43,574 nt of DNA, from the NCBI RefSeq assembly GCF_000003605.2, contig NW_003146289.1, positions 159,090 through 202,663 on the forward strand, in the 5' to 3' direction. Under the pieces are notes generated by a model. It had not been told where the DNA came from. It did not search any database and saw only the letters and a list, made by a program, of their open reading frames with translations. The stretch's first letter is position 1. Every line of letters begins with the position of its first letter. The DNA comes from Saccoglossus kowalevskii (lineage: Eukaryota > Hemichordata > Enteropneusta > Harrimaniidae). Positions 20,022 through 43,574 of this stretch are shown piece after piece. The position numbers and the translations under genes are program-made.

Positions 20022-20101
20022 TAATATAGGAAGATGAAAATACCCCTCTAAAATACCGAGAAATTACGGCATGCTGTAACTTATCGCGGTACGGTAACAG
20101 A
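20022..20101 (-). repeat. Dispersed repeat, copy A (inverted to copy B)
   Basis: The reverse complement of this ~80-bp segment aligns with 28918-28996, at about 80% identity by eye. Shared blocks include tgccgtaattt, cggtatttta and ggggtattttcatc. It must be a member of an interspersed repeat family. No terminal repeats or target duplications were recognised at the edges of the alignment. Confidence 0.75.
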
Positions 20102-21049
20102 TAAGGTTCAAAATGTATTGCTATCTGCTTGGCACTCCTATATTTTGTTTGTGGTGAAAAATAATACATCCACTAATTTGAGTCGGTTTGCATCAGCTAT
20201 AAACACGATTATTTACTCTGCTTAATAACAACACATATGACTGTGCGAGTCTTCCACAATACTGGCCTGGGATGAAATGAGACTCATCACACTTGTTGTG
20301 ATTTGTTTCTAACTAGTTGTTAAGGGTGTGTGAATCTAGTATTCGCACAGAATGCAGCAACATGTGTTAGAAATTGATAGGCGATTCTTCAAAAAATAAT
20401 CAATGCTGTTATAACAACCTATATACCATCTGAAAACGTAGATATATGTGAATACGGTAGCTCATTATATTAACACTGTGTGCTTCCTGGAGCTTAAATC
20501 AAAATATATTCCAATTTAAATCAAAAGTCTGAACTGAACTGCACAGCAATACCAATCTCTATCAACACATGACAAATATAGTATTCAAATACACAGACAA
20601 ATGTCTCAAACACAGTACGCGTAGGGCGGCAAAATTCACTTTAAATTTCTCTTTATTTAGACAAATTATACAAGCAGATCACGAAGAGAGGATGTTAACT
20701 CGCACAAAGCTCAACAAAATAATACTTTTCACTGCAATAGTCAAATAGGGAAAGCATGCGTGGCAAACTAGCCATTTTATGAAACTGTTCATTTATGTCG
20801 CGTATCGTGCTCCCTTGACAAGTTATTCGCGTAAATCCGGGACGAATTTCCGCAGATTGAGGTGGATACAGTCTGATGTCTTTCTGTAATATGCAAATCT
20901 CTAATAATAAAACGTCATGGTTATGCTAACAATAAGGTTAACAACATACAACTTGTATCTTGAAGTAAAACAGTTTAATATTTACTACACAAAACTTGTC
21001 ATCTGGCACTGAAAAGCATAACTGAAATGCATGTTTCCTAGAAACATGT
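20102..21049. other. AT-rich stretch, nothing recognised
   Basis: No open frame, repeat or RNA gene worth calling. Confidence 0.4.
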
Positions 21050-25580: not shown

Positions 25581-28500
25581 TGCATCTCTTTATATATAGC
25601 ATTTCAATAAGGTATACGTACTCTGGAATGTTACATAAAGAATTAGTGTTCACATTTAATTTGAACTGTTTTATTATACTTATATCCAAACATGTATATA
25701 TACTATAAGCCTAAGCTACTCACGAATTACAAACCAAAGATCTATGTGCTGTTAAATATTACATTCATTAGAATGCTGATGATCGTAGATGTGGGCTGAT
25801 GCTGTGGTTGAGGATGAAACTCACTTATCATTTAATTGAAGTATAACACTCAGAAAGTAGTAATCCTGATGAAGAAAATATATGCTACTTAAACTGCCCC
25901 CACAGATTTACACATAACGTAGAATACGTGGGTATGATAACAAGTAAACGGAGGATACGTCCAACCGCCCGGATTAAGCTTGAACAAATTCACATGGCTC
26001 TATTATTACCCCATGTTTATCCAATTCCATGGTATCGTGCCGTTGTCATCACGACTTCTTATCACGCCTCTTTTTTTTCACTATTTTGACTAACTAACAT
26101 ACTTCCCCTTCATTGTACATTTTATTCGTATATGTGCGTTTGAATAGCACAATCAGTCGTCAACATTCCATATAGCTAAGTGTAAAAAAATAATCATAAT
26201 TTTAACATATGGTCAAATTATTACAAGTAAGGCTGCTATGCGCAAATGAAGCCACGTTAGACTTGGTGATTATCACGACCATACGTAGGCTGACAATTAG
26301 TTTATATAGGGAACTTATTCAATTAAGCTGATTTGATTGAATCCACCATAACCAACTGAAGATTGTGCTAAAGTTACCCTTAATCAAGCCTATGTTTCCA
26401 TGTCAAACTTTGTACTTACACGACTAAATATAATGACTGATGTTATGAACACCAGTATAGAAAACATTGGGTTATTGTGACTATATGATATTACGAGGAT
26501 TGTTTCACCTGATATCGATATGGCATTTAGCATTCTCCTCATCTCCCATGCGTTGTTGATGATATGTGACGTGGGTGTGTTCTGATTCAAGTACCCACGA
26601 GATCAAACGCACCATTTCAATTGTTTATTCATGCACATACGCGTTAATATATATAATAGTAAATGTACAAGTATATATCCACCATACAACCACGAAAATC
26701 GAATTAGTATTATAGTTAGAGCAGAGTAATATTGTATCACAATATGACAATATACATCTGTCACATTGAAATGACATCATATAGCGAAGGGCCACTAAAA
26801 GTGTTAAACTTCAGGGGATGGTAGAAATGCATAAATGTCAACTGTGATATTATGTTGACCTCAATAAATATTCATATCTTTTCGTGAATCATTACCAGTA
26901 TAACTATTAAATATATGTACGTATAAATGATAGGTTCTGGTCACAGTTAAAATTGCTGCAACTATTTCAATTCTGGCATAACAAAATGTCAGAACTATGT
27001 TTTTTATAGTTGCCAGTCTGTGTATGGCAATGTGGTGAGGTGACATTATGAGGTAAATATATATACCTCTTCTGCACTAAAATAAGAGCATTTAAATAAT
27101 GCTCTGTCATTAAGTTATATGAACACAACTATTCTTATGCATTGTGGCTCATTGTAATAAAAACATCGAAGCAAATATCTGTCACCGTAAAGTTGAAATA
27201 ACATCATACCAAACCAAAATCAATATAAATAATCGACAAATGTGTCATACGAACTCAAATTAAGAAAGACACAATTTATATTCACACTAGTAACACCAAT
27301 AAAAGATATAGTACATCAATTTACATTATTGATTTTTTTATTCTAAATATTGAGTATGCTACACCGCTAATGTCAATTATCAATATCCATTCAGTCGTAT
27401 AATGTGTGAGATTACGTCACCCAGTTACCCATTGCGCCGATCTGTCAATCTGTAAAAGAAGAATGGGATGAGACGTTCTTGTTGCGTTTTAAATGCAAAA
27501 TTATACATTAAAGAAGATGATGCTTTACGGTGACTCTTATTTAGAATACATGATACATGGGGTTGAATTACCAACAAGCTTACTAACGAATCGAAGCATT
27601 ATGATATTTTAAATAGAAAGACCAAGAAATATTACCATTATAATAGAGGACTGGACAACGCGAGCAAATATCCCACACTTTCGAGGTTTAGTCACGTGTT
27701 GTGTATTGTTGTAATGGTATTATAAAATTACACGCAACAACACTTATCCGATACATAGTAAGTGAAAATATTCGTCGCGGCCTTACTCTTGCATACAATT
27801 GCAAAATGTTAACGTTATGATTGAACACGGGGGAGACTTTTAGGTATCTTGTACGGCAATTTCAAATCTGATAAAATTGTCATATGATTGAGAAGGTTTT
27901 CACCCCTATGCAATAATCGGTAATCAGCGTGACAATTATTGAAAATTAAATACCTATAAAATATCATGAACATGATGTAGTCAATATATTACCTGCCCCC
28001 AAAACAAAATTATTAATAAACTGTAAGTGTTAGTGTTCCGAGTAAACAAGTCTAATACGTCACCCGTGTTGTGCATTACATTGAGCCATGTTAAAATACA
28101 TCATCAATTGTGTCTCACTTCGCTTCAGACGTCCAATACGTCAGAATACGATAAGATTGTCTAAATAATTATGCGTTTTGAACGAAAGAGCTTTTTTACA
28201 ATCATACGCTTTTCTACTAAATGAATTGACAATTTCAGTTTTCTTCTGATAACTACGTCACTGATCGTGCGCAAGTATATATTCGCCACATAAGAATGTG
28301 TCTGCAACCTGCAACCTTTTTGCACAAGTTAAATTGATTTATATTGTTGATTTCAGAAATGTACTAGAATATATGAACTGAATATAATAACCAGAAGTGT
28401 AGCAACTTTCTACTATGGAATCAGCATTATTATGCTCACGGTAGCCTAGAAACCAGATAATTCGAAACTTATCCACTTAATTTATGCAGTAATTAGTGAT

Positions 28501-28917
28501 GAACGTTGTTAGGTTAACATGTACTGACTAGGTGAGGTAAATGAATTATTTTCTGAATTAACGTTTCACAAGATTTTACAAGTGTACGCGTCGACGGGTA
28601 CATCATTAACCTCTGCCTATACAACACCATGACATATAGCCTCCATAGGTTTGTGATTGTATTTTGAGTGAACTCATTATTTTATGTATAATTAAAGGGC
28701 CGTGATCGTCACGAAGCGAGTGTTCTAATTTCATGTAAATAAACAATATATTTGACAAGCGTTGTGTACGTCGATATGAGTTCCATATTGAACAGGACTC
28801 GGCTCGACGACTGAGACTCTTTAAAAGTTAAGCGGCTTGCCGACATTGGTAGTTTATTTTTCTTCTTACACGTGTTGTGCACGCGCGCCATAAACAAGTA
28901 ATAACCATTATCATACA
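25581..28917. other. AT-rich stretch, no gene supported
   Basis: Short shared phrases of the form atctgtcac...ttgaaat-acatcata occur near 26757 and 27178 and may be worn repeat copies. An acceptor-like aatttcag (ending 28238) is followed by 32 open codons to TGA 28335-28337, which is within chance. Minus frames at 26390-26590 and 26861-27046 have no recognisable domain. Confidence 0.4.
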
Positions 28918-28996
28918 TCTGTCACCGTAACGCCATAAGTTATAGCGTGCCGTAATTTAGCGGTATTTTACGGGGTATTTTCATCCTACCATATTA
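28918..28996 (+). repeat. Dispersed repeat, copy B (inverted to copy A)
   Basis: Matches the reverse complement of 20022-20101 over about 80 bp, with scattered substitutions. The flanks do not align, so the match marks one shared repeat segment about 8.9 kb from its partner. Confidence 0.75.
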
Positions 28997-29415
28997 GGAA
29001 ATACGAATTTCAAATATGGAATGATTACGCGCGAAAGCGTCCTCTAATAATAAAAACAAACATGGCTGCCACCAGAGTTCGACTCCACACAAAGAAGTTG
29101 TTTTTTCTGTTCTAAACATTTTGAACTTCGGCATTCAAATGGTGTATCCTTGGAAGGATAAGATGTATGATAATAAGGTTATTCCGAGAATACCACAAAG
29201 TATGCACTCAGACACGCCTCGCATCGACCTCTGCTGCTGTACTGTCTTCGTGCATAAATTGAGGTGTTTTCGTAATAACCTTATATTATTGTAAATGATG
29301 TGTTGCGTAAAAATGTCACCGTGTTGTGCAGATGTGCACTTAGGAAAATATATGTTACAACCATATCCCGATGCAACATAACGAAAAAATACAACTAAGG
29401 AATGAGAAGTCAATA

Positions 29416-29622
29416 TCAATATTATATTATAAAAAATACATACATATAGTCTTTGTAATGCAATAGTCGTCAAGACTGTCTATAATTATTTTTGCCCTAA
29501 GGGCAATATATTCCACTGTATCAATATTATATTATGAAAAATACATACATATAGTCTTTGTAATGCAAAAGTCGTCATGACTGTCTATTATTATCCTTGC
29601 CTTAAGGGCAATATATTCCACT
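29416..29622. repeat. Tandem duplication, two copies of a 105-bp unit
   Basis: Copy 1 (29416-29520) and copy 2 (29521-29622) differ at about seven positions in 102 aligned bases. Each ends with a short palindrome: ttgccct-a-agggcaa at 29492-29506 in copy 1, with one change in copy 2. The minus-strand frame 29135-29473 overlaps copy 1 and shows no domain. Confidence 0.93.
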
Positions 29623-35347: not shown

Positions 35348-35662
35348 AGGCATCATAATCCAACGCATATTCTTTTGTTATTACATTATTCATTAATCCA
35401 ACCTCATATTACGTACAGACTGGAATTTTGGGGAAGTACATATTCATCACATATAAAAAAAGTATTCTAACTACCCAAACATTATTGAACAAGTTATAAA
35501 ATTTCTGAACTTACTGCCCATTCTGCCTCTATTTTCAACCAGCTTAACATTTTTGACATTTATAAAATTCAAAACTATCTCCTTTTAATTTGTTTGCTCG
35601 ATGCTATTAATGGAAACATAACATGTAAACCCAAACCTGCATTATATTCAACACAATCATAA
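35348..35662 (+). pseudogene. LINE C-terminal region (post-RT), relic
   Basis: Two consecutive frames give a clear non-LTR retrotransposon signature. From 35348 the frame reads THILLLLHYSLIQPHITY, then LEFWGSTYSSHIKKVF, ending at a stop (35468-35470). This matches the common pattern LYYSLIYPHLTYGIEVWGSTY...K. In another frame from 35507, LTAHSASIFNQLNIFDIYKI continues to TAA 35660-35662, matching the AHTAPLF..LNILDIYK block that follows in intact elements. The QKKAIRII segment expected between them is scrambled by stops and frameshifts. The copy is truncated at its 5' end. The ATT tract starting 20 bp beyond the stop may derive from the element's own short-repeat 3' tail. Confidence 0.88.
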
Positions 35663-35681
35663 CACTAAACAACAAAACAGG

Positions 35682-35750
<69 letters not shown>

Positions 35751-35757
35751 GTTGTTG

Positions 35758-35828
<71 letters not shown>
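35682..35828. repeat. ATT microsatellite, 49 units, with GTT block
   Basis: 147 bp of pure trinucleotide repeat: ATT throughout, except four GTT units at about 35751-35762 that keep the register. It lies 20 bp after the LINE stop codon at 35660-35662. Confidence 0.98.
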
Positions 35829-37022: not shown

Positions 37023-37256
37023 CTATAAATTGAAGGCCTGCTTTGATGTCGAGGCTCTAGCAAACGTCCAAAGTAAGTAAGAACGAGGATGTATAGCATG
37101 TATAGCCGAAAGCGTCATTCTTTGACGAAGAATTCTTGCAAATTCAGCAAGGTATAGATGTTTTTTATGCATCCCCACGAGAATGTTGTGTAATACGTAC
37201 CTTATTTTGTGCAGAAGGACAACTGGCAAATGATCATCAGAAATAACACCTGATTC
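37023..37256 (-). other. Unidentified open frame abutting the transposon
   Basis: The minus strand is open for about 77 codons from the transposon edge to a stop at 37023-37025, and formally continues into the element (to 37475). The part outside the element reads protein-like (for example RYVLHNILVGMHKKHLYLAE) and includes a strong donor consensus, aataag|gtacgt (near 37197-37202). The hydrophobic/basic pattern loosely recalls an OST-HTH/LOTUS module, but that is a guess. If it was once coding, the insertion would have cut it. It may equally be a chance frame. Confidence 0.2.
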
Positions 37257-37273
37257 ATGTACACTGTAAATCT

Positions 37274-38170
37274 CGGAAGCACTTTCATGTTTTTCATTAA
37301 AACACACCGTTTTAATTGAAAACACACTGTTGTAATTAAAAACATGTGTATTATATAATAACAGTAGTGTTTCAGTATTTTTAGAAAAGTGTTTTAGGGA
37401 GTTATTAAAACACTTTTTGATGAAAATTAAGCACATTGTAAACACACAAAAATACACTCTTCCGAAATAAAACACTAGGTGTTTTACGGTGACATAAATG
37501 TGTAATTAAAGTGTTTATTGATAGAACATTTAAGGGCTAATTCACCTTTATGCAAAATTGAGTGAAAAGTCTGAGTAAAAATTACGGTATATATGCCAAC
37601 TAGACAATCACCGAAAGTGACGTCATGACATTACCTCCAGAAAATAATTTTATGTCACGCACCAACATATATGGTCTTACCAACCTAAGTACAACTAGAA
37701 ATCGAGACACGTGGTGAATTAAGTACCTCGTGGCCTAACGGATTTTATTAATCCGCATTTGGTGAACGGTAGTTGTAGCATTCTCACATGTTGTTTTTTC
37801 TGGAAAAATTCTCAATTTGAACCACTTCAGAAAGCAAAATCACCAACGATGTTTCAACCCAAAACACCAAACTATAAATGTGTTCAGAGTGTTAATGTAA
37901 AATACACATTTGTGTTCATGCGTAACTAAAACACTTTTTTACAAATTGTTTTGTCTTGAAACACTTTCTAAAACAAACACACATGTAATGTTTCAAGATA
38001 AAACACCCGACTATGCATGTTTTATAGGTGTTTACATATATGACATGTACAAACGGTCATAAGAGTAACTAAAGCACTTTTCCTTGAAACTGTTTTAATT
38101 TAAGGCACTCCAGAAAACAAACATGCAATGATTCAACCTAAAACACCCGATTATATACAGGACACTTGTG
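37274..38170. repeat. Left subterminal motif-rich arm
   Basis: Dozens of variants of aaacac, cactttt and gtgtttt occur in both orientations, including the perfect hairpin aaaacac-tag-gtgtttt at 37469-37485. A gap of about 37500-37850 interrupts the motif field and holds a tRNA-like segment, which suggests a later insertion. Confidence 0.7.
37729..37790 (+). repeat. Decayed tRNA-like segment inside the transposon
   Basis: The phrase cgtggcctaacggat resembles a tRNA A box/D arm. It is followed by aatccgcatttggtgaacgg and a weak ttgtagcattctc at the B-box position, like the head of tRNA-derived SINEs. It lies in a gap in the left motif arm. No foldable tRNA remains. Confidence 0.3.
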
Positions 38171-38458
38171 TATGCCGTCTACGGTATGCATCTATAATAT
38201 ACACAATACTTATTGTCGATTTTATGCTGCATATTTATTGGGAAAAAAATTGGCAGCAAGTCATACTGTGCATGTAGAGATAACTTTACCGATTTTTGTA
38301 TTTTGAGAGAGTGCATACCATGTACCTGTCACAAGTTTGATAACTGATGGAATTAAACATGCACGATGCTGTTATCAATGTTCGAGTGAGTAAACTGGAC
38401 GACGGTGCGCTAAACAGGCAATTATTAACTGTGACCTAATCATTCCATTTCTTTACAG

Positions 38459-38536
38459 CTCTTATTCTATTGGCGGAGCCTCGGTGTTGAATTCCAATAT
38501 GGTGATTACCACGCACCAGTGCAAATTGTCGCCTAA
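38459..38536 (+). CDS. Possible terminal exon inside the transposon interior
   Basis: A strong acceptor-like tract, cattccatttctttacag (ending 38458, preceded by a branch-point-like gacctaat), opens a frame of 25 codons to TAA 38534-38536. The residues include FYWRSLGVEFQYGDYHAPVQ. AATAAA follows at 38608-38613. The block has more balanced composition than its flanks. It could be a captured host exon, the tail of an element gene, or chance; 25 codons alone prove nothing. Confidence 0.18.
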   Translation, partial: LLFYWRSLGVEFQYGDYHAPVQIVA

Positions 38537-39266
38537 TTTAAACGAGCTCCTTTAAGCCTCTAATAATACATAACCATTCAATTGTTATTTAGAAATGTAA
38601 TTAAAGCAATAAATACAACATGAAAACAAATATTGAACAATAAATAAGTTTGCTACTTCTTTGCAAAATATTTTGAGATACCTTTCGTAATCGATGGTTG
38701 ACATTAATGTTTGTTGCGTGTTCTAGTAATGATTACTTGTGTCGTGCGCACGTCCATCCAGGATTGAATGATACTATCGGGAGTATACGTAGACAGGTGG
38801 CGTATTCGTTGAAGAAGCAATAACAACTTGAACCAAATGAAGTCTTTTTTTTGATTTACTGAGGAAAGAAGGAAATCGGAAGTTATCCTAAACAAACCTG
38901 AAGGTATGATGATATTGTTACTCCTTTACGAAGCGTGTGGAAAGTGTAATTGATAGAGCCAGCTTCGGCAGTTGTGTACTACATTGTTATTTGCAGCGGC
39001 CTCAATTCATTTCTTATGTTCGGCATAACTGATTAACACCTGCCAACACCCCGCAGATCAAGATAGAAATGTTGCAGAATTTAACAGGAAATTTCAGTTC
39101 ATTTCGTTTGTGGTAATATTTTCGTCTTCTCATTACATGCGCGTTAGTTTATAACAACAATATCGCATTGTTTGAAACAATAATGATAAATATTTGAACA
39201 TTACTCACTGCATTTTGATAATATTATACTTTTCAGATTTTAAGAGAAGCGATCGGAGCGAACAAG

Positions 39267-39428
39267 ATGAAACTGCTAATGTTGGGAATTAATTTTGTCC
39301 TGTTAATATGGGTTACTACTGAAAGGGTTCAAATATGTTATTGCTCGTTTCAGTTAATTACTCATGTTTTGAAGTGTAAATTTTCGCAAATATTGGATAT
39401 TGTATCTACAGTTTCACGAAAGGTTTGA
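39267..39428 (+). CDS. Possible small secreted peptide ORF, 53 codons
   Basis: A pyrimidine-rich tract ending in ttttcag (39236) precedes a 30-base leader and an ATG in good context (gcgaacaagATGA). The frame starts MKLLMLGINFVLLIWVTTE, a signal-peptide-like profile, then a short cysteine-containing tail (QICYCSFQ), and ends at TGA 39426-39428. It lies in the motif-poor interior of the candidate transposon. Either a captured gene fragment or chance would explain it. No homologous family is recognised and no clear downstream donor was found. Confidence 0.18.
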   Translation: MKLLMLGINFVLLIWVTTERVQICYCSFQLITHVLKCKFSQILDIVSTVSRKV

Positions 39429-39689
39429 ATTTCAGTACTAGTAAACACACTCACTCACGCGATTGATAACTATCTTTTACAACAATTATACATGTCTGTT
39501 TTTCTTAAATGTTACACTCGAACTTACTTTATTAATGTTGATTATGTGATTTGTTTATCGTTTGTTATGATTACTGTACAATAGTGCAAAGTGCCTCATC
39601 ATGAAATGCATCATTTGATATATTTTGTTTTCAGAAATAATAATTGTAATGATTTTTTCACCATGTTATCAGTGTAAATACATTTTAAA

Positions 39690-40391
39690 ATGTGTCTCTG
39701 TTACAAACACTTGTCAATATTGTGTTTTACTGTTCAAAGTGTTGCGACGATAAACACTTTTTCAATAAATATTTCTGGTGGAAACTCTTTTCAATGTGTG
39801 TATTATTAAATAAAACATGTTGACACATTTTTATATGTGTCGTGATTATAAACACATTACAAAATGTGTGTCTAGTAAAAGCACTTTTAAAAGTGTTGTG
39901 ATAATAAGCACTTTTTATACATGTTCCTGGAGGGAACACTTAACAAATTGTGTGGCTAGTAAAAGCACTTTCAAAAGTGTTGTTATAATAATCACTTTAT
40001 ATACATGTTCCTGGTGGAAACACTTTAGAAATGTGTGACCAGTAACAACACGTTTATATACATGTTTCTGGTGGAAACACTTTTAAAAAGGTGTTTTAAT
40101 GTGTTATGGGTAAAAACATTCCTGAAATGTTCCGCTAAAAGTGTTTTCATAATATACACTTCTCGCAATTATGCAGATTATAAACACTTTAAGTTTTTTT
40201 TAAAGTGGGACAAGCTTATAAACACTTTAAATGTTTTATCACAAAACAGTAAAAATGATTTATTTTAAAACAGTAGCGTTGTAAAATAACTCATTTGCGA
40301 TTTTGAAAAAAACACTTAATGTGTTTAATTAAAAATCACTAAAAAGTGATTTTAAAGAGGGGACAAAAATGTGTCATATTTTAAAACGCAT
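39690..40391. repeat. Right subterminal arm with ~84-bp units
   Basis: Repeat units sharing ctagtaaaagcactt, the half-palindrome aaaagtgtt and cctgg-ggaaacactt recur with 84-bp spacing (ctagt at 39872 and 39956, then ccagt at 40039). A shortened third unit and an outlying copy near 39739 are also present. Within them cacttttaaaagtg (39882-39895) is a perfect palindrome. Near the terminus, aaaatcact-aaaa-agtgatttt (40332-40353) forms a perfect 9-bp stem. Confidence 0.8.
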
Positions 40392-40487
40392 AGATTTACA
40401 GTGTATGTATGATAGTTAATTACTAATGTGAAACAACGCAGAACGTTGTTATACATTTTGAGGTACAGGTTTTAATATATATAATTA

Positions 40488-40740
40488 CAACTCCATCAGT
40501 TCAATAAGTAGAGTGGACACTCGGTGGCTTGGATGGCCGAAGGAACCTGAGTTAAAATTAACCGGTTCGATCGATCACTTTTTGCGGTCACTTGCACTGG
40601 AGACGGGTGTTGTTTTGTTGACATTTTTTTCGATGTCATTTAAGCCTGGGATTTGTTATTAACATCTATCAGCATAATGTGATAATGAACCGGGAGGAAT
40701 GTGGATAGGATGGAATGAATGAATGGATGGAATGAATGAC
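40488..40740 (+). repeat. Decayed tRNA-derived SINE with repeat tail
   Basis: cagttcaataagtagagtgg (from 40497) resembles an A box of the CAGTTGGTAGAGTGG type. Two B-box-like phrases follow at about 40548 (gagttaaaatt) and 40562 (ggttcgatcga). A unique body then leads to a simple tail of tggaatgaa-type repeats (about 40710-40740). The order head, body, simple-repeat tail is that of a SINE. It lies about 80 bp beyond the right end of the transposon. Confidence 0.45.
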
Positions 40741-42842
40741 AAGAACTGTACGTGACCGTTGCGGAATAACATTTGTGAATAAAAAATACAATTTACTAAA
40801 TAAAGGTTTCTGCAAGTTGTGCATGAAAGAAGCGGAATATGCCGGTAGAATGCCCGTATAGTGATGTTACTCTAATTTTAGCAACACTAGATAATATATA
40901 TTTTTCGCCGTGTTGGTGGTGTGAAAGTTTTAGGTAAAACCAGTAAACTAAAAACACAGTTTACTGTCTAGAGTCCAAATTCTCATCAACTTATAAGCTG
41001 GTTTAAACTTCTCTCTGATAAATAAAGAGAATTACCAGAGGACAACATGGATTAACAAAAAGGTTTTAATTTTTAAATAGAAAATGTACCTACATTGCAA
41101 AAATCATCTCCAATCCCGAAAAAATGGGGAACTGGACATTGACAATTTGAGGTGCTTGAAGTCTTACTGCAGTTTAGCAAACTGAAAATAAAAATAAGTA
41201 GTTAGTGCAGCACGATCGATTTAATTTAATTTGTTTGAGTTTTTTTATTTGTAAGTGCATGGAGCCAAGGTTCTTGTTGGCTTTTTCGATTAACAACACA
41301 ACATGCTAGCAAAAAGAATATAGTCCGAACAAGGATCTTATTTTAATAAAAACTCATAGCTAATAAAATGGCGTAGTTATAGACGCGCCGCCAGTCACTG
41401 GCTCTTGTGATATACGAGGTTTTTATTAATATGCATAACTGATCGACATGCAGCAACTCTTGTGTACACGGCCCAGCTGCCACATTAAATTTTAGTATAC
41501 GAATGTCATTAGAACAATAACGCAAAATGCCAACGCTCCTGTACACGTGCGTTGAATTCACAATTTCTTGGACTTTACGAGCATATCCCATTTGAAAATG
41601 TGGGCAAAATCGTTGAAAGGAATATGAGACTTTCCCTAATATAGGAGGCTATAAGTCACATAAGACCTTTTGACTCGCCAATTTCTGGATATAAAGTCCT
41701 CCCGTGCGGTCTTTTTTTATCCTGGATCAAACTTTTGTATCCCCAAATAGTCCTCGTACTCGAGCTTTATCTTATACTAAACGTGCGACCTCAACAACGT
41801 GCCATATGTTTTGTTAAAAACCGGCGGCATAAGTAAGTCTTAGCTCACGTCTTTTTAAAAAAAAAAAACGTTCAGTCGTTTTACAAATAGTAATGTGTGT
41901 ATATGAGTATAAGTGCTACATTGCTACGCAAAGATCATGATTTGTAACGTACAATGTCAGCAGTGACATTTCACGCTAAACGGCACAATTATAATAGATA
42001 TGCAGCTACGACATGTGTCATTATACATTGGATAACTACATGTGGGCACAAGTAGAGTCTTGAGGGAATAACGAGCCTCTCATCCATAAAAAAACGTCAT
42101 TTGTTCCACCATTTAGAAGTGTCTTAAAGCAACTGAAGAGACTCAGCACTATTGAAAGTGCCATTTTCTACCTGAATTGACTTTTATTTGGGTCTGCATT
42201 TGTACTTGTCAAATACGTTCTCATTTGTAAACAAATCTTTAATTTTCCTTTGATTTTCATTCATATTATTATTATCATTATTATTCAATTACATTTCTCA
42301 AATGAATGTTACACTACGTTTTCATTTTTGATTTTTAATTACATATATCCATAATAAATATATTATGTTATACGTATCAAGAAACAGACGAATGATGTTA
42401 GTGGAAGTTTGTCAATATTAACACTGATAACATTCATGTTAAATGATTTCATTTACCTATATACACATAATGGAAATAAAGGAGAAGAAGCCATCATGAT
42501 CATAACAACTAGCCGCACAAATTTAATGTATAAAACAAGTAACGCAAAGCGGGTCGAAAGGTATGTTGCCAACTAATGTTATGAGTACAAACCGCAATCG
42601 ATCAATTAATAAATTGAATTGATGTAACAATTCATCCATCTCATGCTCTCTACTTGAAATGCAGAATAACATGTATTGTTTGCATGTGTGTTGTCCCCAA
42701 GGTTTTAATATTCAGTGTGTTTATTCATCGGTAGTTAATCTGCAACAACTAGTAATTTAGAATTCCTGAATGCCCTACATGACGTTTTAGACATTATTAT
42801 CCTGAACATTATTATTTTCTCATAATTACAAAGGTACCATAT
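40741..42842. other. Mixed stretch, no gene supported
   Basis: A short inverted repeat (agtaaac/gtttact near 40945-40970) and a poly-A run near 41855 were seen. The minus frame 41343-41591 has no recognisable domain. Nothing else is supported. Confidence 0.4.
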
Positions 42843-42849
42843 GGCAGAG

Positions 42850-43574
42850 TAACTACTCATACCAATTCATCAGCTACTCTGTGTACTCATACCAATTCAC
42901 AGTTACTCTGTGTACTCATACCAATTCACAGTTACTCTGTGTACTCATACCAATTCACAGTTACTCTGTGTACTCATACCAATTCACAGTTACTCTGTGT
43001 ACTCATATTAATTCACAGTTACTCTATGTACTCATACCAATTCATAGTTACTCTGTGTACTCATACCAATTCACAGTTACTCTGTGTACTCATATTAATT
43101 CACAGTTACTCTATGTACTCATACCAATTCATAGTTACTCTGTGTACTCATACCAATTCACAGTTACTCTATGTACTCATACCAATTCATAGTTACTCTG
43201 TGTACTCATACCAATTCACAGTTACTCAGTGTACTCATACCAATTCACAGTAACTATGTGAACTCATACCAATTCACAGTTACTGTGTGTACTCATACCA
43301 ATTCATAGTTACTCTGTGTACTCATACCAATTCACAGTTACTGTGTGTACTCGTACCAATTCATAGTTACTCAGTGTACTCATACCAATTCATAGTTACT
43401 CTGTCTACTCATACCAATTCAGAGTTACTCTGTGTACTCATACCAATTCACAGTTACTGTGTGTACTCATACCAATTCATAGTTATTCTGTGTACTCATA
43501 CCAATTCATAGTTACTCTGTGTACTCATACCAATTCATAGTTACTCTGTGTACTCATACCAATTCACAGTTACT
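42850..43574. repeat. 29-bp minisatellite, at least 24 full units, open at the right
   Basis: Unit tactctgtgtactcatacca plus attcacagt repeats in exact 29-bp register from 42875 to 43570, with a degenerate partial unit at 42850-42874 and a cut-off unit at the window end. Variants fall into classes (ctgtg/ctatg, acc/att, cacag/catag). Units at 42991-43077 and 43078-43164 form an identical three-unit, 87-bp higher-order block. Because 87 is a multiple of three, long frames translate through it. They are artefacts, not genes. Confidence 0.98.

Follow-up and report, generated by a model that had tools for sequence, protein, structure and literature searches.

A candidate non-autonomous, CACTA-like DNA transposon with two long subterminal motif arms

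Short matching ends with long blocks of repeated motifs inside them are an architecture already known from plant CACTA elements. As far as the available text of the cited papers goes, CACTA elements in general carry subterminal repeats that extend over several hundred nucleotides (PMC8978399), and in Spm/En such repeats are bound by TNPA, which acts with the transposase on the ends for excision (PMC2613891). The same source describes the soybean element Tgmt*, which has 24 repeats in 732 bp on its right side and another 4 within 159 bp on its left (PMC2613891). Subterminal repeats are also reported in hAT elements (PMC4298943). The wider CMCT group is characterised in the available text by mostly CA..TG ends and duplications of 2-5 bp (PMC12730594), and animal CACTA members with a 2-bp duplication have been described (PMC6004678, PMC1636069); Spongebob, an animal element like SmTRC1, starts with CCC and has a 2-bp duplication (PMC4298943). 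The zebrafish element EnSpm-N6_DR is given as 346 nt (PMC3485254).

Here we describe a locus in a 43.6-kb stretch of DNA (43,574 nt; the whole of it is called the window), which we read with moderate confidence as a single copy of a non-autonomous DNA transposon of the cut-and-paste type, ~3.14 kb long and most probably belonging to the CACTA/Mirage/Chapaev (CMC) group. Perfect short inverted ends, motif-dense arms that start just inside them and the lack of recognisable coding sequence all argue for a transposon. The points against are that a single copy is seen in the window, that the ends share 14 bp only, that the flanking repeat varies with the end chosen, that no related transposase was found, and that the TIR scores low with the arm motif. 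Terminal inverted repeats (TIRs) were taken from a listing of inverted pairs (pair I17) and from the border test below. The features, from left to right, are:

37257..37261, no strand: left flanking direct repeat, read as ATGT (37257-37260), ATGTA (37257-37261) or TA (37260-37261) according to the end chosen
37260..37273, plus strand: left TIR, TACACTGTAAATCT, whose first TA is possibly target duplication
37274..37551, no strand: left arm, proximal motif cluster; 13 sites (from 37276) with spacings near multiples of 11 bp
37552..37873, no strand: left-arm stretch of 322 bp without motif sites at the threshold used
37874..38152, no strand: left arm, distal motif cluster; 12 sites within a degenerate ~140-bp repeat
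38181..39650, no strand: middle, with 4 motif sites and without a Pfam match
39651..40391, no strand: right arm; 32 motif sites
40392..40405, minus strand: right TIR, the perfect complement of TACACTGTAAATCT
40404..40409, no strand: right flanking direct repeat, read as TA (40404-40405), ATGT (40405-40408) or ATGTA (40405-40409)

Among the described systems, Tgmt* resembles the element in its short CACT-type ends (in Tgmt* an imperfect 13-bp CACTA inverted repeat), its asymmetric arms of similar length and its mixture of direct and inverted motif copies, with stem-loops predicted for Tgmt* (PMC2613891). It differs in its length of 20.5 kb, in encoding a transposase, in its 3-bp ATA duplication, in its motif (TTGGCAG/AATCTTACAG) and in having CACTA rather than CACTG ends, according to the available text of that paper (PMC2613891). 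ENS1_Cis, CMC-NA_1 and CMC-NA_2 share the CAC..GTG ends and, if TA is taken as the duplication, its 2-bp length; the CMC-NA elements are MITEs, however (116-422 bp for the MITEs of that paper), and long motif arms are not described in the available text (PMC6004678). Chapaev elements likewise have CAC..GTG ends; their duplication is stated to be generally 3-4 bp, and TWA for Chapaev3 (PMC4079192), whereas the exact CAC ends of our element fit TA only. The animal TRC element SmTRC1 is a CACTA relative that contains a tandem-repeat region and has a 2-bp duplication in 7 of 14 copies, but the source gives it ends that start with CCC, a 54-bp inverted repeat and a Transposase_21 domain (PMC1636069). 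The arm length, which a preliminary description of this DNA had called very long, has precedents in CACTA elements: with its 24 repeats in 732 bp, Tgmt* shows that long motif arms are not new.

The same description had reported exact 13-bp TIRs 3.14 kb apart. These are real; the repeat is in fact a perfect 14 bp, the 13 bp being the same repeat counted from ACAC. The termini are of the CAC..GTG type (CACTGTAAATCT at 37262-37273, its complement at 40392-40403), and 14 bp is all the sequence that the two ends have in common. As stand-alone evidence we rejected the bare pair, because inverted pairs of 14-mers 200-6000 bp apart are expected by chance in the window (Markov-2 mean 4.5, against 2 present). 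The position of the repeat is more telling. In a border test with 60-bp windows at the outer edge of each motif block, the longest inverted match in 4000 random pairs was 11, compared with 14 observed; the corresponding values were 12 and 14 with 100-bp windows, and 12 and 13 with 40-bp windows, which cut the repeat to 13. A perfect 14-bp repeat at these borders is more than chance.

We also considered the TIR as one more copy of the arm motif and rejected this. Both TIRs score low on the arm-motif model (1.8 and 2.9), so the ends are not simply another motif copy, and sequences within 2 mismatches of the TIR 12-mer are about as common as chance predicts: the window has 9 with both TIRs counted, against 6.8 expected, and 29 of 100 shuffles yield as many. 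The exact pattern CACYGTAAA occurs 5 times in the window (Markov-2 mean 1.25; 1 of 200 simulations reached 5), two of the five being the TIRs that suggested the pattern, and at least 3 occurrences were reached in 26 of 200 simulations. With one mismatch allowed, the count is that of chance (27 against 26.6).

What adjoins the ends depends on where they are placed. With ends CACTG..CAGTG the adjoining direct repeat is TA; with ACACTG..CAGTGT it is ATGT; a left end CACTG combined with a right end CAGTGT, an asymmetry of one base, gives ATGTA. Since TA is its own reverse complement, a TA duplication is indistinguishable from two more bases of inverted repeat. An identical 4-mer on both flanks had been noted before and is there, as ATGT at 37257-37260 and 40405-40408, so that the span first proposed, 37257-40408, equals the repeat-bounded element plus ATGT on each side. 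A shared flanking 4-mer is expected by chance in 0.66% of cases when the register is fixed and in 2.5% when any of four registers is allowed, which amounts to mild support. Next to the CAC ends we found no 3-bp direct repeat of the plant CACTA/EnSpm type and no TWA duplication of the Chapaev3 type (GTA on the left, TAT on the right).

The flanks bear directly on whether the element might belong to a different superfamily of TIR transposons, one with TA target sites or a 4-5-bp duplication, its ends being only CACTR-like. Tc1/mariner-like elements are an example of a superfamily with TA target sites. We consider such an origin unlikely. It would account for the TA next to CACTG at either end, and the duplication can be taken instead as ATGT or ATGTA; furthermore, no transposase was found in the element. 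However, in the available text of the sources CAC..GTG is called invariable for Chapaev (PMC4079192) and is common to CACTA elements with 2-bp duplications (PMC6004678), whilst direct and inverted subterminal repeats belong to full-length CACTA elements (PMC8978399, PMC2613891). These points are not decisive against other superfamilies, and hAT elements have subterminal repeats too (PMC4298943). The CACTG..CAGTG ends fit the CMC group, a probable assignment that draws on a few terminal letters together with the arm layout. The earlier reading of the locus as non-autonomous and CACTA-like holds for the TIRs, the arms and the non-coding character; its CACTA part depends on those few letters and on the arm layout, and the flanking repeat is ambiguous.

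The arms measure 921 bp (left) and 755 bp (right), or 53% of the element, in line with the half proposed previously. A position-weight model fitted on the arms has the consensus AAAACACTTTTAA, and its sites number 25 in the left arm and 32 in the right (57 in total), with 4 in the 1.47-kb middle; the same model finds 116 sites in 1-37256 (3.1 per kb) and 9 in 40409-42850. The exact words AACACTTT/AAAGTGTT occur 15 times in the window: 5 in the left arm, 9 in the right, none in the middle and one outside. Both orientations are represented, as had been claimed, with 15 plus and 10 minus sites on the left and 17 plus and 15 minus on the right (32 plus and 25 minus overall); the 57 sites provide subterminal repeats in direct and inverted orientation, as in CACTA/EnSpm elements. 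The description of the arms as densely filled holds for these 57 sites and fails for the 322 bp of the left arm (37552-37873) that contain none.

To avoid circularity, a model trained on one arm was scored on the other. The left-trained model found 25 sites in the right arm, compared with a mean of 1.48 and a maximum of 4 in 122 outside windows, and with a mean of 4.5 and a maximum of 9 in Markov-1 sequences of the right arm itself. The right-trained model found 13 sites in the left arm (outside windows, mean 1.48, maximum 4; Markov-1 of the left arm, mean 3.8, maximum 11).

The sites are regularly arranged in places. In the right arm, nine plus-strand sites follow one another at 27-29-bp steps (39849-40074), most of them lying inside an 84-bp tandem unit at 39850-40056 (2.5 copies). 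Four of the eight gaps between the nine contain a minus-strand site, so neighbouring copies make short palindromes. Folded as single-stranded DNA and compared with 20 shuffles each, both arms fold better (right, z -5.1; left, z -3.8), whereas 901 bp of the middle (38400-39300) fold no better than shuffles (z +1.9). In the proximal cluster of the left arm, none of 500 jittered site sets had an 11-bp period as strong. The period is weaker in the left arm as a whole (0.012) and absent from the left distal cluster (0.976) and the right arm (0.394); the phasing is exploratory, as it appears in one of the four sets looked at. A self-match within the left arm (37817-38014 with 37956-38154; 67% by blastn, with which direct repeats D5/D6 agree) marks the degenerate ~140-bp repeat. 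Units of 28 and 84 bp on the right and of ~20 and 140 bp on the left point to local tandem duplication as the probable way in which the arms grew.

The same tandem structure, with the 84-bp unit and its 2.5 copies in the right arm, could also be taken as a sign of two minisatellite-like blocks that share a common word and are flanked by an inverted repeat through chance, with no transposon involved. That bare 14-mer pairs are common enough in the window, and that a second copy is not seen there, would agree. We nevertheless regard this as quite improbable: the same motif lies in both orientations in two blocks 1.5 kb apart, and the perfect inverted repeat at their outer borders was matched by 0 of 4000 random pairs. 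On these sequence features, a TIR-bounded, non-coding element with motif arms is well supported.

The left-arm gap raises the question of a nested composite, in which an older element would subsequently have been lengthened by insertions into its middle or into the gap, its present length then differing from that of the mobile unit. The 322-bp site-free stretch and a middle unlike the arms point that way. Against this, the end of the stretch, from 37817, matches the distal cluster and is part of the left arm's own degenerate ~140-bp repeat, and, among the 25 of 47 inverted pairs listed, those around the stretch (I5, I8 and I22) consist of arm-motif words. A composite seems to us distinctly unlikely; it is compatible with either a CMC transposon or one of another superfamily, so these likelihoods are not mutually exclusive.

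The element has no recognisable coding sequence. Its six frames have no Pfam domain at E up to 1, including no CMC-type DDE transposase, as expected for a non-autonomous copy, and none of the stop-to-stop frames of 90 codons is fully contained in it. The sole listed frame that touches it (37023-37505, minus strand) crosses the left end.

For a non-autonomous CMC element, a transposase encoded elsewhere would cut at the CACTG ends. By analogy with Spm/En, a DNA-binding protein supplied in trans, either the transposase itself or a TNPA-like partner, would coat the arm motifs and might pair both ends ahead of excision; a dense array of direct and inverted copies would help such binding to be cooperative. 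A bolder proposal, which we hold to be very unlikely, is an unnamed CMC family, probably of animals, that would assemble its transposition complex on two very long arrays of the motif (~57 sites) with helix-set spacing, the arms rather than the 14-bp ends being the main recognition signal. Behind the helix-set idea are the left proximal cluster, with spacings close to multiples of 11 bp, and the 27-29-bp steps on the right. If copies exist, they would represent one more family among the CACTA relatives that have short CACTG ends, and the role of the motif arrays could be compared with that of the repeats that TNPA binds in plant Spm/En; as a single copy, the element is a matter of ordinary repeat annotation.

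No second copy was found in the window: matches to the TIR 12-mer with as many as 2 mismatches are no more frequent than chance would give, and when blastn compared the element with the remainder of the window, the strongest hit spanned 23 bp (E 0.009). Exact end pieces of 20 and 22 bases are absent from viral_contigs, which is weak evidence because that collection is not eukaryotic. None of the papers found that combine CACTGTAAA and transposon concerns such an element, judged by titles. A pattern for the motif array (AACACTTT-gap-AAAGTGTT-gap-AACACTTT) found 10 stretches in viral_contigs and 116 in genome_contigs, the 80 of these 116 that were listed with titles being bacterial. The 9-base TIR core occurs in 5 of the 126 motif-array loci (L001-L126), once in each and never twice, and we took these loci, of which only L002 and L051 were inspected further, as unrelated. 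L051 (1-8000; an Alphaproteobacteria MAG) has 22 AACACTTT/AAAGTGTT words and L002 (1-5147; IMG/VR) has 15, several of them outside ORFs of at least 100 codons. Both loci also carry consecutive ORFs of 406, 103 and 326-327 codons, and possibly share one mobile or phage-like unit unrelated to the element. Elsewhere in the window, a possible second element was considered: a perfect 12-bp inverted repeat, GTCACCGTAAAG, with CAC..GTG inside, lies at 27181-27192 and 27523-27534 (starts 342 bp apart); no flanking duplication was found at this pair, and the window has 58 non-low-complexity 12-mer pair positions in its distance range.

By inference, the window, with 66% A+T by base counts, looks like eukaryotic intergenic DNA. 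It contains no tRNA according to ARAGORN (bacterial code) and no Rfam match that reaches the gathering score. A six-frame Pfam scan covered 1-42850 and had no match above the curated cut-off; frames were read with X at stops, and remote or broken exons may escape such a scan. Its single weak row is Orf78 (E 0.0069; 17.1 bits, cut-off 29.4) at ~35607-35792 in converted coordinates, overlapping an ATT array. That array, at 35682-35828, comprises 49 copies of the trinucleotide with 98% matches. A stretch resembling a tRNA-derived SINE lies at 40520-40745, 115 bp past the right end of the element; it contains TGGCTTGGATGG and GGTTCGATCGATC, which we take to be A/B-box-like words, and has a tail of GAATGAATGAATGG type. 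ARAGORN calls no tRNA in this stretch, and the sole row of an Rfam scan of 40300-41000 is STnc150, whose score of 19.2 falls short of its gathering score of 60. Further repeats in the window are a tandem duplication of a 105-bp unit at 29414-29622 (93% matches), an inverted dispersed repeat of 81 bp at 20022-20102 and 28917-28996 (85% identical), and a tandem array of a 29-bp unit at 42854-43574, with ~25 copies and 92% matches, which continues past the window end.
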